From positions 62,001 through 126,000 of the forward strand of contig NZ_SNYN01000005.1 in NCBI RefSeq assembly GCF_004363075.1: a stretch of DNA of 64,000 nt, in the 5' to 3' direction. Positions 57,414 through 64,000 of this stretch are shown one piece after another. The stretch is from Actinorugispora endophytica (GTDB lineage: Bacteria > Actinomycetota > Actinomycetes > Streptosporangiales > Streptosporangiaceae). How positions within the stretch are numbered: position 1 is the first letter of the stretch; every line of letters begins with the position of its first letter. The position numbers were made by a program, and so were the translations under genes. Below the pieces are notes generated by a model that worked only from the letters and a program-made list of their open reading frames with translations, did no database searches and was not told the origin of the DNA.

Positions 57414-57519
57414 CCGGTCGGGATGAGGCGGCGGTGCGGTGCGCTTCCGGCAATCACCGCGGCGAGTGTTCATGGGGTCGGGGTGCGGTGATCGATCGCG
57501 CCGGGGCCTGGACCACAGG
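57414..57519. repeat. ~100-bp dispersed repeat, copy 1
   Basis: Matches 59371-59477 with roughly 80-85 % identity and almost no gaps (shared GGCGGTGCGCT, CACCGCGGCG, TCGATCGCG, GGGGCCTGGACCACAGG). Its end is fused to the partial PP2C copy. Not protein-like. Confidence 0.6.
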
Positions 57520-57873
57520 TGGGACGCTGCTCTGACCGAGCGGCGCAACGTTCCCGGCGGGTTCTGGACGGCGGGCGCCGATCCGCGCGCCGCCTGCGAA
57601 GCGCTCACCGGAAGCGTCGCGCTCGCCGACCTGGCCGGGTTGGCGATGCTCACCGACGGGGCCAGTCGGCTCACCGACACCTTCGGCCTGGCCACCTGGC
57701 GGACCATGCTCGACCTGCTGTGGGCCGAGGGGCCGCACGCGCTCATCGCCCGGGTGCGCGACGCCGAACGCGCAGATGCCGACGGCAAGCGCTGGCCTCG
57801 CTCCAAGAGCCACGACGACGCGACCGTGCTCACCTGGCGGCCGACCGCCCGGACACTTCCGGACAGTCGTTGA
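57518..57873 (+). pseudogene. Partial PP2C phosphatase copy
   Basis: 57518-57847 repeats 63550-63879 without gaps over 330 bp, with only scattered base changes. It carries the C-terminal half of the PP2C protein (LTERRNVPGGFWTAGADP, AMLTDGASRLTDTFGLATWR, SKSHDDATVLTWRP) but lacks the N-terminal metal-binding half and a plausible start. The frame ends after an unrelated tail (ARTLPDSR). A recent duplication fragment. Confidence 0.9.
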
Positions 57874-58395: not shown

Positions 58396-58947
58396 ATGGG
58401 AGACGTTCTGTGGGCACGCGACCTGGCTCGGCGTCTCCTCGAGGATCCGTCGCCCCGACGGTGGGCGCACACCCGGGGGGTGGCCGAACGGGCCGAATCC
58501 CTGTCGGCGCTGCTCGGCGATGACACCGACCTGGTGACCGCCGCCGCCTGGCTGCACGACATCGGCTACTCGCCGGCTCTGGCGGCCACCGGCTTCCACC
58601 CGCTCGACGGTGCCCGCTACCTGCGCGATACCGAGAAGGCGGATGAGCGGCTGTACTCGCTCGTCGCCCACCACTCCGGCGCCTGGGTGGAGGCAGGGGA
58701 ACGCGGTCTGCGGGACGAGCTGGTGGAGGAGTTCGCGTTCCCGCCCGCGAACCTGCTGGACGCGCTCACCTACTCCGACATGACCACCGGACTCGACGGC
58801 ACACGCCTGTCGTTGGAACGCCGCCTGTCGGAGATCCTGGAGTGCCACACCCCCGGCGGCATCGTGCACCGTTCCATCTCCCAGTCCATGCTGGCGTTGA
58901 CCGCCTCGGTCCGTGCGGTCGAGGGGCGGTTGAACCGGGTGGGTTGA
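58396..58947 (+). CDS. HD-domain phosphohydrolase
   Basis: A 183-residue metal-dependent phosphohydrolase: His25 in RRWAHTRGVAERAE, the HD pair in AAWLHDIGYSP (His54-Asp55), further ligands in VAHHSGAW, and Asp in DALTYSDMTTG. Such small HD proteins cleave phosphate esters of nucleotides or related molecules; the substrate is unknown. The ATG at 58396 has no Shine-Dalgarno and follows TAGCCTGTAGAC, so translation is probably leaderless from the element's end. A homologous gene at 49166-49718 is broken. Confidence 0.88.
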   Translation: MGDVLWARDLARRLLEDPSPRRWAHTRGVAERAESLSALLGDDTDLVTAAAWLHDIGYSPALAATGFHPLDGARYLRDTEKADERLYSLVAHHSGAWVEAGERGLRDELVEEFAFPPANLLDALTYSDMTTGLDGTRLSLERRLSEILECHTPGGIVHRSISQSMLALTASVRAVEGRLNRVG

Positions 58948-59037: not shown

Positions 59038-59095
59038 GGTCCGCCCTGTGGCACGTGTGTGGCACGGAGCCGCGAAAACCCCTCGGGAACGACGA

Positions 59096-59134
59096 AGGCC
59101 CAGGTTCGGGATTGTCTCCCTGACCTGGGCCTTT
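59096..59134 (+). terminator. Rho-independent terminator
   Basis: AGGCCCAGGT pairs with ACCTGGGCCT and is followed by TT. It is one of few hairpins here with a small T-run; it ends transcription entering from the left before the attachment core. Confidence 0.7.
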
Positions 59135-59140
59135 GCTCTG

Positions 59141-59186
59141 TGGAGCGGATGACGGGAATCGAACCCGCGCTATCAGCTTGGGAAGC
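59141..59186 (-). tRNA. tRNA-Gly(CCC) 3' fragment (attachment core)
   Basis: The minus strand reads GCTTCCCAAGC (anticodon loop, CCC), GATAGCGCGGGTTCGATTCC and CGTCATCCGCTCCA: anticodon stem 3' side, variable loop, T arm, acceptor 3' strand and encoded CCA. The 5' half (acceptor 5' strand, D arm) is missing; beyond 59186 the sequence is unrelated. This is what integration of an element into the 3' end of tRNA-Gly leaves behind. It cannot make a working tRNA. Confidence 0.85.
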
Positions 59187-59370: not shown

Positions 59371-59477
59371 CCGGTCGGGGACAAGGCGGCGGGGCGGTGC
59401 GCTCCCGGCAACCACCGCGGCGGGTGACCACGGGCTCGGGGCGTGGTGCTCGATCGCGCTGGGGCCTGGACCACAGG
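59371..59477. repeat. ~100-bp dispersed repeat, copy 2
   Basis: Counterpart of 57414-57519, inside the non-coding stretch 59187-59640. That stretch has no convincing gene; it also contains a short tandem GGACCACAGGC/GGACCACAAGC motif near 59470 and 59535. Confidence 0.6.
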
Positions 59478-59640
59478 CAGTCGTTACCGCGATCGAGTGC
59501 CACGCGACCCGAGCCCGTCGGTGACCACAGGCGGGACCACAAGCGGTGTGGGGTTGTCCGGCTACGTCAGTTTTTGCGTTGCCATGACTCGGCGGTTACT
59601 GCTGTGCTGGGATACCCATAACGGCCCTTAACCCCCGTGA

Positions 59641-59699
59641 GGGTTGGGCTGGGGCTCCGGACCGGGCGGCAGCCCGCAGCCGGAGCCCCAGCCCAACCC
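59641..59699. terminator. Long hairpin
   Basis: GGTTGGGCTGGGGCTCCGG pairs exactly with CCGGAGCCCCAGCCCAACC (19 bp) around about 19 bases. It forms the boundary between GC-rich DNA and the AT-rich gene that follows. Confidence 0.8.
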
Positions 59700-59786
59700 C
59701 ACGACGGCGCGAAGCGCCGGAGCCTTGATCCCATATAGCTCAACTCGGCAACAAAAAGACTATCTTTAATTACAAGAATTTGGATT

Positions 59787-60785
59787 ATGAGGAAAGTATA
59801 TTTTTGGATCGCTTTAGTGATTTCAATATCCCTCTTTTTTATAGGCGCATCAACCCCGATTGCAAGCCTGCTTCCGTTTCCTGCAGCTTGGACCTCTTGG
59901 GTTTCTAATCTATTTATAAGCATCGGAGCTTCCATTGCTATTTTTGCTCCGCTCTTTTTTCTAGAGCGAAAACTTGAAGGGAAATTGAACGAATTCGAGA
60001 AGAGTCAGAAAGAAATAAAAAGAAATCAAGGGCGCCTAGAAGGCGAAAGTCAGGCGGCTAGAGATTCCATCTCTTCCTTAACCAAAGAGGTGAAGCGGAC
60101 ACAGGAAGAGCTATCCAAGGCCGTAATCAACAAACTAGCATCGGGGCGCAAAAACGACGAAGAGCTGATTCTTTCCGTGAAGAATTCACCGGATCGCTCT
60201 ACGATAATTGAAGCAATAGCGCGCGCCCGAGAACTCAGACTCATACCAGATACCGGGTGTAGGACCACAATTCCTGCGGTAGTGGAGCTGTACGCGAGGT
60301 TCAGTCCGTCTCAAATAAGACTACACGAGGGACTTACCATTCCTATTGAAATAGACGATTCAAGACCTATTGAGAGCATAATTTGGCACGAAGGGCAAGA
60401 TGTAATTGATTTTTTAGCCGAACTTGCCCTCAAGTTACAGGATTTAGGGCTATATCCTGGCGATGCCGTTTTTGATTCAAGTGAGATATTCAGGGAGCTA
60501 AGCGATCTCCTAGGCTTGTCGCACAAGGCAGTAACTGGCTCTCATGGTCTCACTTATCCCTTGGGTGAAGTAATACAGATAGTCCAACCACAGTGGGTGA
60601 TTAACAGCAAAGGGATCATTAACTACGACGGCCCAGGAGAGTACTTTATCTCTGCAAAAAGATTCAACGAAATGGACTGGTGGAATCATGTCACGCGCAA
60701 AGGGTGGGTCGATAATATCTCCTTTGGAAAAGCATTTGACACGGCCAAACTTCTAGTCGAGCAAGGGGAAATGGAGATGGATTAG
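59787..60785 (+). CDS. AT-rich membrane-anchored coiled-coil protein, unknown
   Basis: A 332-residue protein. Two N-terminal membrane helices (VYFWIALVISISLFFIGAST and WVSNLFISIGASIAIFAPLF) are followed by a charged coiled coil at about residues 65-130 (LEGKLNEFEKSQKEIKRNQG) and a ~200-residue soluble domain (STIIEAIARARELRLIPDTG, FLAELALKLQDLGLYPGDAV, YFISAKRFNEMDWWNHVTRK). No catalytic motif is recognised. Composition is close to half A/T, with codons such as ATA, TTA and AAA that are nearly absent elsewhere, so it was acquired from a low-GC source. GGATT is the only weak ribosome site before the ATG. Confidence 0.85.
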   Translation: MRKVYFWIALVISISLFFIGASTPIASLLPFPAAWTSWVSNLFISIGASIAIFAPLFFLERKLEGKLNEFEKSQKEIKRNQGRLEGESQAARDSISSLTKEVKRTQEELSKAVINKLASGRKNDEELILSVKNSPDRSTIIEAIARARELRLIPDTGCRTTIPAVVELYARFSPSQIRLHEGLTIPIEIDDSRPIESIIWHEGQDVIDFLAELALKLQDLGLYPGDAVFDSSEIFRELSDLLGLSHKAVTGSHGLTYPLGEVIQIVQPQWVINSKGIINYDGPGEYFISAKRFNEMDWWNHVTRKGWVDNISFGKAFDTAKLLVEQGEMEMD

Positions 60786-60823: not shown

Positions 60824-61609
60824 ATGAATCTAAAACAAGCTCTAATAATCGGCCAAAAATTACGCAATTGGCGCGAGCATGTGGGGTGGTCTGGCCGGGA
60901 ATTGGCTCGGCGTTCGGGGGTGGCCCAGTCAACGTTGTCGCGAGTTGAGAACGGGCAGCGGGTGCGGTCTGCTGAGGTGGTTGATCAGATCATTTCGGCT
61001 TTGCCGCTCGGTGAGGAAGAGGCTGCTCGGCTACGCTCTGAGGTTCGGGCGGCGTATTCGGCGACGAATGAGCGTCGGGTTGATGCTGGGTTCTCGCTGA
61101 AGTCGGACGTGGTGCGCAGACTTGAGCGTTCGGTTTCCTCTGTGTCGGCGTTTCAATCGGCGGCCATTCCTCGGGCTCTGCGAACCGCTGAATATGCCAA
61201 GGCGGCGGGGACTCGGGACCTCGGGCTCTCCGGCTTGCTTGATGACGACAAACGGGACTTTCGGTTCGCCATCACCGAGGGGGCATTGCGCACCTGGCCC
61301 GGTGATGGGTCGGTGATGCTTGCCCAGCTCGACCACTTGGCGGCGGTTTCTCGGCGGGCGAACGTGTGGCTTGGGGTGGTGCCGTGGTCGGTTCCGCTCG
61401 GTGTGGTGCCTCCGCATGGGTTCACGCTGTACGGGGATGAGGCCGTGTCGGTGGAGACCTTCACCGCCGAGGTGACCATCAGCGATCCGGATGCCGTTGC
61501 CGCCTACCGAGACGCCTTCGCTGTGGTGGAGCGGTCGGCTGTGAGCGGGGATGAGGCTCGGGTACTGCTGGCGACGATTCGGGACGACTTCAGGAAGCTT
61601 GCCGAGTGA
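60824..61609 (+). CDS. XRE regulator with DUF5753 domain
   Basis: A 261-residue regulator: helix-turn-helix VGWSGRELARRSGVAQSTLS RVENGQR, then a DUF5753-like domain (IPRALRTAEYAKAAGTRD, RRANVWLGVVPWSVPLGVVP PHGFTLYGDEAV). Codon composition changes within the gene: the first ~20 codons are AT-rich like the preceding gene (ATAATCGGCCAAAAATTACG), then GC-rich. It follows the AT-rich gene by 38 bases on the same strand and heads the four-gene module. Confidence 0.88.
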   Translation: MNLKQALIIGQKLRNWREHVGWSGRELARRSGVAQSTLSRVENGQRVRSAEVVDQIISALPLGEEEAARLRSEVRAAYSATNERRVDAGFSLKSDVVRRLERSVSSVSAFQSAAIPRALRTAEYAKAAGTRDLGLSGLLDDDKRDFRFAITEGALRTWPGDGSVMLAQLDHLAAVSRRANVWLGVVPWSVPLGVVPPHGFTLYGDEAVSVETFTAEVTISDPDAVAAYRDAFAVVERSAVSGDEARVLLATIRDDFRKLAE

Positions 61610-61683
61610 TTCACTGTTTTCGTTGAATCACTACCTGGTCTTGGCTTACGCTCCCATCACCAAGGTGTATAGCCCTCTAGACG

Positions 61684-62091
61684 GTGGTGGTTGTGGTGGG
61701 ACAGTGGTCGCGGATGTTCCCTGGCCAGTTGACCGAAGTACGTACGGCGCGGGCCTTCACCCGTGCGGTGCTCGACGGCAATCCGATGATGGATGACGCG
61801 GTGCTCGTGGTGAGCGAGCTGGTGTCCAACGCGCTTCAGCACTCGATGAGCGGCGAGTACGGCGGGCCGTTCATCGTCGCGGTGGAGTCCAACCCCGGTT
61901 CGGTATGGGTGAGCGTGGTTGACCTGGGGGCCGAGACGACTCCCTCGCTGAGCCCCACGATGCCCGGTCCTGATCGTGAACGCGGACGGGGCCTGAGCCT
62001 GGTGGCAAGGCTGTCTAAGGAGTGGGGCACCGACCAACTCCCCGTGGGTCTGCGTGTCTGGGCCGAACTGGTTCCCGACGGGTCTTCGTGA
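61684..62091 (+). CDS. GHKL-type ATP-binding regulator
   Basis: A 135-residue small ATPase of the anti-sigma/serine kinase kind: N box LVVSELVSNALQHSM, G1 VVDLGAET and G2 RGRGLSLVARLSKEWG. It is only distantly related to the twins at 15190 and 50687. Several GTG codons (61684-61696) could start it; the first is given. It lies 74 bases after the XRE gene, in the same direction. Confidence 0.85.
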   Translation: MVVVVGQWSRMFPGQLTEVRTARAFTRAVLDGNPMMDDAVLVVSELVSNALQHSMSGEYGGPFIVAVESNPGSVWVSVVDLGAETTPSLSPTMPGPDRERGRGLSLVARLSKEWGTDQLPVGLRVWAELVPDGSS

Positions 62092-62169
62092 CCGGTCCGC
62101 GTATGCCGCGACGGCGCAGGCTGTTCAAGGCGGTCAGCTCCGCGTCCGGCGAGGTCATCGACCCTGGTT

Positions 62170-62180
62170 TGTCTAGGGGA
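62170..62180. promoter_or_regulatory. TGTCTAGGGGA site
   Basis: TGTCTAGGGGA at 62170-62180, followed by CTAAACTCC, about 50 bases before the HTH-sensor gene start. The same decamer, in either orientation, occurs three times at 63888-63983. Confidence 0.55.
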
Positions 62181-62231
62181 CTAAACTCCCGGGTAGTGCT
62201 CGCGTCGTCGGCACTGGACGGGAGGGGACGC

Positions 62232-63074
62232 ATGCCAAGCGAGTATGAGCGCATCGCGGCGATTGATGATCCGTTCGCTCTGCTCCGGGTAGCCACCGAA
62301 CGCCTCGCCGAAGCGCAGCAGGAAGTGACCGATCTGTCCCGGCTACGTCGGCGCACGATTCAGGACCTGCACGCGCAAGGCTTGTCGTACGCGCAGATCG
62401 CCAAGCAGGCCGGGTTGAGCCGAGGGCGCATCCACCAAATCCGCCATACCGGTCCGGCTCCCGAGGGCGCGTTCTTCGGATCGGGCACGGTCACCGTGGT
62501 TACTCCGCTGCGCCATGACCCGGACAAGAACCGGGCGGTCGTCTCGCTGGAAGACCTCAACACCGGCAAGCGGCTGGAAGACCTGGCGCGCAGCTTCGAC
62601 CTGACGGTCAAGGACGATCACGTCTCGGTGTCCGGCGAGATCGATTTGAACCGGGCGGGCCTGGTGGTGGTGTGCGGGCCGCGCATGTCCGAAGCCATGC
62701 GGCTCACTTACGCCAAGGACCCGGTGTTTCGTTGGGAGCGTGAAGAGGGGAAGCCGTGGCGGCTGCGGGACACCCGAACCGACACGGTGTACTACGCGGG
62801 GTCGGACGAGGCCCCGGCCAAGCCCAATGACATCGCCTATCTGGGTCGTCTGCCCCGCCCCGACGGGCAGGGCTCGGTGCTGGCGATCGCGGGTATCCAC
62901 CCGGTGGGGTCGCTCGGCGTGACGCACCTGCTCTCCACGGACATCGCGACGCTGTGGGGGCAGGTGGGCGCCAGGAACTTCTCGGTCCTGGTACGGACCG
63001 AGTACGACCCGCAGACCAACGAACCGGTCAGGACCGAGTTGGCGACGCCGCTGTACCGCCACGACCAGGACTAG
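62232..63074 (+). CDS. HTH protein with C-terminal sensor-like domain
   Basis: A 280-residue protein. Residues about 35-72 form a sigma-region-4-like helix-turn-helix (LRRRTIQDLHAQGLSYAQIA KQAGLSRGRIHQIRHTG). The remaining 200 residues form an alpha/beta domain (AGLVVVCGPRMSEAMRLTYA, DIAYLGRLPRPDGQGSVLAI AGIHPVGSLGVTHLL, FSVLVRTEYDPQTNEPVRTE) with a Rossmann-like CGP strand turn that suggests ligand sensing. GGGAGGGGACGC precedes the ATG at 62232. The PP2C gene starts 3 bases after its stop. The domain call is inference. Confidence 0.75.
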   Translation: MPSEYERIAAIDDPFALLRVATERLAEAQQEVTDLSRLRRRTIQDLHAQGLSYAQIAKQAGLSRGRIHQIRHTGPAPEGAFFGSGTVTVVTPLRHDPDKNRAVVSLEDLNTGKRLEDLARSFDLTVKDDHVSVSGEIDLNRAGLVVVCGPRMSEAMRLTYAKDPVFRWEREEGKPWRLRDTRTDTVYYAGSDEAPAKPNDIAYLGRLPRPDGQGSVLAIAGIHPVGSLGVTHLLSTDIATLWGQVGARNFSVLVRTEYDPQTNEPVRTELATPLYRHDQD

Positions 63075-63077
63075 CCG

Positions 63078-63884
63078 ATGCCGTACCGCCTCGCCACCGA
63101 CCCCGGACGTCCCGACCGCGCGAACGAGGACTTCGCGGCCGTGGGCACGGATACGGCGGTCCTGCTCGACGGGGCCGGTACGCCCCAGGGGTTCGAGTCC
63201 GGGTGCGTCCACGGGGTCGCCTGGTACACCCGGACCCTCGGCGCCCTCCTGCTCGCCGAGACCACCCCCGGCCGGTCCCTGGCCTGCGGGCTGGCCTCGG
63301 CGATCAAGACCGCCTCGTCGCTGCACGGCGACTCCTGCGACCTGGACAACCCGAACACGCCTTCGGCCACCGTGGTGGCGGTGCGCTTCACCGCGGACCG
63401 GTTGGAGTACCTCGTCCTGTCGGACTCGGTGCTCGTCCTGGACCTGGGCGGCTCCGACCCGGTGGTGGTCACCGACGGCCGCATCGGCGACGTGGGACGG
63501 GAGTCGGCGGGCCGCGACTCGGCTCCCGCCTCGGGGCCGGCGCTCCACGGGTGGGACGCTGCGCTGACCGAGCGGCGCAACGTTCCCGGCGGGTTCTGGA
63601 CGGCGGGCGCCGATCCGCACGCCGCCTGCGAAGCGCTCACCGGAAGCGTCGCGCTCGCCGACCTGGCCGGGTTGGCGATGCTCACCGACGGGGCCAGCCG
63701 GCTCACCGACACCTTCGGCCTGGCCACCTGGCGGACCATGCTCGACCTGCTGTGGGCAGACGGGCCGCACGCGCTCATCGCCCGGGTGCGCGACGCCGAA
63801 CGCGCCGATGCCGACGGCAAGCGCTGGCCTCGCTCCAAGAACCACGACGACGCGACCGCGCTCACCTGGCGGCCGACCGTCTGA
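63078..63884 (+). CDS. PP2C-type protein phosphatase
   Basis: A 268-residue PPM/PP2C phosphatase removing phosphate from Ser/Thr: RPDRANEDFA, AVLLDGAGTP (metal Asp31), TVVAVRFTADRLEYLVLSDS, AMLTDGASRL and NHDDATAL (final metal Asp). It is translationally linked to the HTH-sensor gene (3-base gap). With the ATPase (possible kinase) upstream, a partner-switching-like circuit is plausible. Its C-terminal half is duplicated at 57518. Several TGTCTAGGGG sites follow its stop. Confidence 0.9.
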   Translation: MPYRLATDPGRPDRANEDFAAVGTDTAVLLDGAGTPQGFESGCVHGVAWYTRTLGALLLAETTPGRSLACGLASAIKTASSLHGDSCDLDNPNTPSATVVAVRFTADRLEYLVLSDSVLVLDLGGSDPVVVTDGRIGDVGRESAGRDSAPASGPALHGWDAALTERRNVPGGFWTAGADPHAACEALTGSVALADLAGLAMLTDGASRLTDTFGLATWRTMLDLLWADGPHALIARVRDAERADADGKRWPRSKNHDDATALTWRPTV

Positions 63885-63887
63885 ATA

Positions 63888-63983
63888 CCCCCCTAGACAA
63901 TCGTTCGAGTCGTCTGTTACCTTCCCTGTTAATACCCCTAGACAGCTTGTCGCGTGGCGCACGGTCCGCACTGTCTAGGGGGG
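63888..63983. promoter_or_regulatory. Promoter region with three TGTCTAGGGG sites
   Basis: CCCCTAGACA at 63890-63899 and 63935-63944, and TGTCTAGGGG at 63972-63981, spaced 45 and 37 bases apart. The region is followed by GTG codons near the window edge, so it is probably the control region of a gene beyond it. The same site precedes the HTH-sensor gene. Confidence 0.6.
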
Positions 63984-64000
63984 TGAACAAGTGAGAGGTG

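Follow-up and report, generated by a model that had tools for sequence, protein, structure and literature searches.

Four genes at the right end of the 64,000-nucleotide stretch of Actinorugispora endophytica DNA analyzed here (the window) are, judged from gene content and direct repeats, the regulatory front of a complete actinobacterial integrative and conjugative element (AICE) of about 10 kb and of the pSAM2/pMR2 type, located in a glycine tRNA gene. They form a control block in which the HTH protein is likely an autorepressor that replaces KorSA at pra and is co-expressed with an apparently active PP2C phosphatase. The candidate operators follow this pair of genes from genome to genome with few exceptions.

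A mobile element in a glycine tRNA gene

As originally predicted, the XRE, GHKL, HTH and PP2C genes all lie on the forward strand (Table 1), and PP2C starts three bases past the HTH stop codon. The module proved to be part of a larger unit, since the AICE begins at attL, around 59084 and thus left of the XRE gene at 60824. The original prediction also held that shared sites tie the module to a gene past the window; reading beyond 64000 supplied that gene, a pra homologue, followed by the rest of the element. All core genes have intact reading frames. The element combines a tyrosine integrase and excisionase, a tRNA attachment site with direct repeats, a RepSA-type rolling-circle replication initiator, an FtsK-type Tra and Pra, and would on these grounds be expected to excise and to transfer by conjugation as double-stranded DNA.

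Table 1. Features of the element and its control region; numbering is that of the window and continues past its end at 64000.
Feature	Position	Strand	Basis or remark
attL, left direct repeat (52 + 49 bp, exact)	59084..59186	.	repeat comparison
Cargo protein (probable), 332 aa, AT-rich	59787..60785	+	ORF list
XRE HTH + DUF5753 protein (WhiJ-like)	60824..61609	+	ORF and domain search
GHKL ATPase (HATPase_c_2, AbaA/RsbW-like)	61684..62091	+	domain search, motif conservation
Candidate operator at HTH promoter, GTCTA-GGGGAC-TAAAC	62171..62186	+	pattern, alignment
HTH protein (Sigma70 region-4-like, aa 35-73) with C-terminal alpha/beta domain	62232..63074	+	domain search, model
PP2C (PPM) phosphatase	63078..63884	+	metal ligands, fold match
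Candidate pra operator 1	63890..63899	-	holds proposed -35 box TAGACA (63894-63899)
Candidate pra operator 2	63935..63944	-	just downstream of proposed -10 box
Candidate pra operator 3	63972..63981	+	about 30 bp ahead of pra
pra (past window)	64009-64410		Pra homologue; ATG at 64009
tra, FtsK-type, TraB-like (past window)	64585-66024		PF01580
repSA (past window)	66025-67695		RepSA PF20199, E=4e-101
xis (past window)	67696-67920		TIGR01764
int, tyrosine integrase (past window)	67921-69108		PF00589
Right repeat copy, 52 bp (past window)	69149-69200		
Right repeat copy, 49 bp (past window)	69203-69251		in tRNA-Gly(CCC)
tRNA-Gly(CCC) (past window)	69206-69279	-	

The AT-rich reading frame between attL and the XRE gene is probably cargo; its product has an apparently hydrophobic N-terminus and a coiled coil, and gave no significant Pfam match. 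A long, near-perfect, G+C-rich hairpin of about 68 bp (59636-59703) stands between attL and this gene; it might serve as a terminator, as a single-strand origin or as a transfer site. A relic at 57414-57847, just to the left of attL, is made up of 57513-57847, which shares 97% identity with the 3′ end of the PP2C gene (63545-63879), and an adjoining stretch with 86% similarity to 59371-59477 within the AICE; by these similarities it seems to be what is left of a second, related AICE. A gene at 58396-58947, also left of attL, encodes a 183-aa protein that resembles HD-type phosphohydrolases by eye and may belong to the same relic. A very similar gene was found in another AICE locus (L116), and 'mdp' phosphohydrolase genes have been reported in AICEs (PMC3218068).

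The original prediction had left the choice between a control circuit for a mobile element and one for defence genes. The complete AICE bears out the first; the second found no such backing, since GHKL, HTH and PP2C gave no meaningful PADLOC match. That the element carries a defence or toxin-antitoxin module instead is extremely unlikely. Two papers propose pairs of XRE and small proteins as toxin-antitoxin systems (PMC10364602, PMC6262351), but the genes here keep strict synteny with those for replication, transfer and integration, and across cassette loci most operators are found at the promoter of HTH, of GHKL, or of pra or its equivalent. This reading was rejected on the PADLOC result and synteny.

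Operators that follow the HTH-PP2C cassette

TGTCTAGGGG occurs once ahead of the HTH gene and three times after PP2C, as originally noted (62170 on the forward strand, 63890 and 63935 on the reverse, 63972 on the forward). The genome of 5,253,007 bases contains no other exact copy, and the four together lie in a stretch of 1.8 kb. With four occurrences of a reversed control pattern as well, the count by itself is ordinary and it is the clustering that stands out; by our own estimate, the chance that four uniformly placed sites fall within 1.8 kb is about 1e-10. The sequence is not a whole site. Alignment of relatives identified it as the left half and spacer of a 16-bp imperfect palindrome, the inverted repeat GTCTA-N6-TAGAC. 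The right half matches at 4.79 of 5 positions at HTH promoters (control 1.24) and at 3.58 of 5 at the pra sites (control 1.27), where it is degenerate. A literature search for the site sequence returned only unrelated papers, mostly with primer sequences.

The right half of the operator ahead of the HTH gene forms the proposed -10 box, TAAACT (62182-62187). Across relatives this copy typically lies at -44, with its right half as a TAnnnT -10 box; in the window it lies at -62. The three pra operators have the orientations -,-,+, about 45 and 36 bp from one to the next, and lie around a proposed -10 box TACCTT (63918-63923), and TAGACA-N17/18-TAnnnT recurs in most of the 34 cassette-linked pra promoters, all promoter boxes being consensus readings rather than mapped start sites.

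This geometry bears on whether the HTH protein might, instead of repressing pra, activate it in the manner of a sigma factor or a class II activator. Its HTH is region-4-like, homologues are annotated 'sigma-70 family', and the first pra site overlaps the -35 box, the usual position of class II activators. However, two of the three pra sites are downstream of the proposed -10 box and the site at the HTH promoter covers its own -10 box, which is the geometry of a repressor; the HTH gene is located where KorSA, which is known to be a repressor (PMC8584621), would otherwise be; and only the region-4-like HTH was found in the protein, with no sigma region 2, so that it does not classify as a sigma-70 factor. 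We consider activation improbable.

Pra promoters of loci that carry the cassette were set against those of loci that do not. The -,-,+ trio is present in 34 of 34 with HTH-PP2C and in 0 of 39 without, apart from the contig-truncated locus L127, in whose genome the HTH gene is at another contig end. The trio stays with pra even where pra sits 1–3 kb away from PP2C. The inverted pair was found in 45 of 299 genomes, every one with an HTH homologue (in G152 only as a contig-edge fragment), and in none of about 218 genomes without one, while the reversed control was found in none (Fisher p=2e-31, in which related genomes are not independent). As a blind check, the DNA pattern alone was used to pick three genomes from outside the order; all three encode XRE, GHKL, HTH (66% identity) and PP2C alongside it.

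Autoregulation by Pra, or binding by a host factor, would also place sites at pra, and the trio does occur in every cassette locus with pra. Some Pra proteins of cassette-less loci are 88–93% identical to the one here, yet where another repressor is present their promoters lack the sites, which thus follow the regulator and not the Pra backbone; moreover the sites are absent from cassette-less genomes and occur nowhere else in the host genome. This distribution makes both readings very improbable, and they were rejected.

The original prediction also named the XRE protein, beside HTH, as a candidate binder of the site. A WhiJ-like XRE could be the operator-binding repressor, with HTH-PP2C serving another function: almost every locus with the exact operator has an XRE, most loci with the operator have it upstream of GHKL-HTH, and WhiJ9 of S. 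venezuelae binds sites adjoining its own gene (PMC10294661). Here, in contrast, no site stands before the XRE gene itself, and XRE identity falls to 36–41% while the operator is unchanged. Two further observations favour HTH over XRE as binder. Locus L058 keeps operators at HTH and pra with no XRE homologue or XRE-like reading frame in the 2 kb upstream, and distant HTH-PP2C loci with neither XRE nor GHKL still have related motifs before HTH, built on GTCTAG or on G/C tracts (GTCTAGGGGGGTCTAGAC in L111, and TGTCAAG with a G/C tract in L102-L112). XRE as the operator-binding repressor is accordingly unlikely, and the HTH protein is the preferred candidate.

The operators of distant HTH-PP2C loci (30–40% identity) differ (TGTCAAGCCCCCC, GCAACCCCC) and could be linked to a second target in one case only, L158. 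A k-mer search for operators at such loci mainly picked up GC-rich words due to chance; it returned repeats upstream of HTH in L101 and repeats at a second gene in L158.

What stands upstream of pra differs between loci. In none of the cassette loci did the 4.6 kb upstream of pra contain a KorSA-like GntR. Among the 38 other loci, 25 have one within 1 kb upstream and 13 have XRE-type repressors (10 of a divergent second type, 3 XRE-TPR), and the pra promoters of these cassette-less loci keep other conserved sequences. The divergent XRE (L116, L117, L119, L121, L122, L124, L126, L131, L133, L154) constitutes a third repressor module, with a C-terminal domain that is possibly PLD-like and ATACATGCTATACATGTAT as likely operator. 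In a fourth (L118, L120, L128) the XRE has a probable TPR-type repeat region, the pra promoter keeps TACTAGACA(A/C)AAC(T/A)AAAAGT, and the neighbor is a small antibiotic-monooxygenase-like gene. From this, the pra promoter appears to act as a plug-in site that accepts at least four unrelated repressor modules.

The proteins and a proposed switch

Of the 299 genomes of the host's order, about 80 encode a full-length homologue of the HTH protein (60–88% identity). The original prediction treated HTH and PP2C as a pair and named unlinked homologues as the finding that would speak against it; a PP2C homologue stands beside HTH in 68 of the 71 loci read, and XRE-GHKL precedes HTH in most of them. 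Plasmids of Streptomyces, Micromonospora and Amycolatopsis carry divergent HTH homologues (33–43% identity for all plasmid matches). The next gene is annotated as PP2C in at least two of the four divergent plasmids, pRL1 and the Micromonospora plasmid, while pSVL1 and pXL100 have a similarly placed gene with another annotation. Neither XRE nor GHKL was seen beside HTH on these four, and no homologue of the HTH protein was found in phages. A second AICE backbone (L053-L072) carries the same cassette, with the trio before a gene whose product begins MRNIPVDV and with a different Tra, from which we conclude that the cassette has moved between backbones. Homology of the MRNIPVDV protein to Pra was not supported (hhalign probability 0.5%).

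PP2C is probably catalytically active, as judged from its predicted fold and active site: the canonical metal ligands E17, D18, D31, G32, D204 and D257 are invariant in 31 aligned sequences, and the fold matches PPM phosphatases in the PDB (E ~1e-9). The GHKL protein keeps its ATP-binding motifs: an alignment of 57 sequences shows conservation of the N box and of the GRGL motif. The model of the HTH protein is confident (pLDDT 94), and its fold search gave no PDB match at E<=0.001, only weak BcsB and flavodoxin-like ones, and none among viral models. A PDB sequence search with the family gave noteworthy matches only in the HTH region, the best being a designed-looking repeat protein. The modeled C-terminal alpha/beta domain thus appears to be of a fold class without a solved match.

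KorSA of pSAM2 represses pra as well as its own gene, and Pra in turn activates repSA-xis-int (PMC8584621, PMC3218068). We propose that the HTH-PP2C pair stands in for KorSA, in both position and role. The HTH protein would bind GTCTA-N6-TAGAC operators, probably as a dimer; the operator over the -10 box of its own promoter would give autorepression, and the three over the -35 box and transcribed leader of pra would silence Pra, and with it repSA-xis-int, that is, replication and excision. PP2C and the upstream WhiJ/AbaA-like XRE-GHKL pair would probably tune the repressor, perhaps through phosphorylation and dephosphorylation. Specific phospho-control of the HTH repressor by GHKL and PP2C, suggested by the coupling of PP2C, is a tentative proposal; both enzymes may act on other targets.

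If these repressors do constitute a family controlled by phosphorylation, its members would be master repressors of actinobacterial mobile elements, composed of an HTH and a new sensor-type domain and nearly always accompanied by their own PP2C; they would have been swapped for KorSA on near-identical elements and would occur also on Streptomyces, Micromonospora and Amycolatopsis plasmids. We regard this wider reading as possible but rather doubtful. Were it true, AICE excision and transfer would be gated by protein phosphorylation and not by a small-molecule ligand of GntR. No KorSA ligand has been identified (PMC8584621), and the signal that wakes AICEs is not known. The present elements have nearly the same backbone, but a protein with its own phosphatase and an exactly defined operator in place of the usual repressor, which makes the question of the trigger directly testable. 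The 16-bp DNA signature is also usable for finding such elements.

Comparison with known systems

AICEs, KorSA-pra control and WhiJ-AbaA pairs are already known. The HTH-PP2C cassette in KorSA's place and the GTCTA-N6-TAGAC operator were not found described in a literature search that had most subscription journals outside its scope.

The closest parallel is KorSA-pra of pSAM2 and its homologue SCO3932-SCO3933, in which a GntR/HutC repressor acts on pra and on itself. The candidate operators here likewise lie at the regulator's own promoter and at that of pra, and the place upstream of pra and the downstream tra, repSA, xis and int are shared. In contrast, a domain search found no GntR/UTRA (KorSA-type) domain among the ten main genes of the element, and the HTH protein is unrelated; the KorSA operator is AC[TC]T[AG]TT[GC][TG][GT]ACG; and the adjacent PP2C and upstream XRE-GHKL pair set the present element apart.

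The pMR2-type AICEs surveyed in Frankia share the backbone order pra-tra-repSA-xis-int; the regulators described there are GntR, small XRE and NsdA-like XRE, and a phosphatase is not mentioned (PMC3218068). The Micromonospora rosaria plasmid NC_006910 has a Pra homologue at 41% identity.

The XRE-GHKL pair resembles the WhiJ-AbaA(-BldB) clusters of Streptomyces (PMC10294661, PMC4255298), in which an XRE/DUF5753 gene likewise adjoins a HATPase_c (anti-sigma-like) gene. Here, however, HTH-PP2C and the AICE genes come next, and the ORF list, as opposed to a dedicated search, contains no DUF397/BldB gene in the gap between XRE and HTH.

RsbW/SpoIIAB-SpoIIE partner switching shares with the element a GHKL ATPase of the serine-kinase/anti-sigma superfamily and a PPM phosphatase. 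The element differs from that type of switch in that its ten main genes gave no match to a STAS anti-anti-sigma domain and it has no sigma factor, while its PP2C is paired with a DNA-binding protein.
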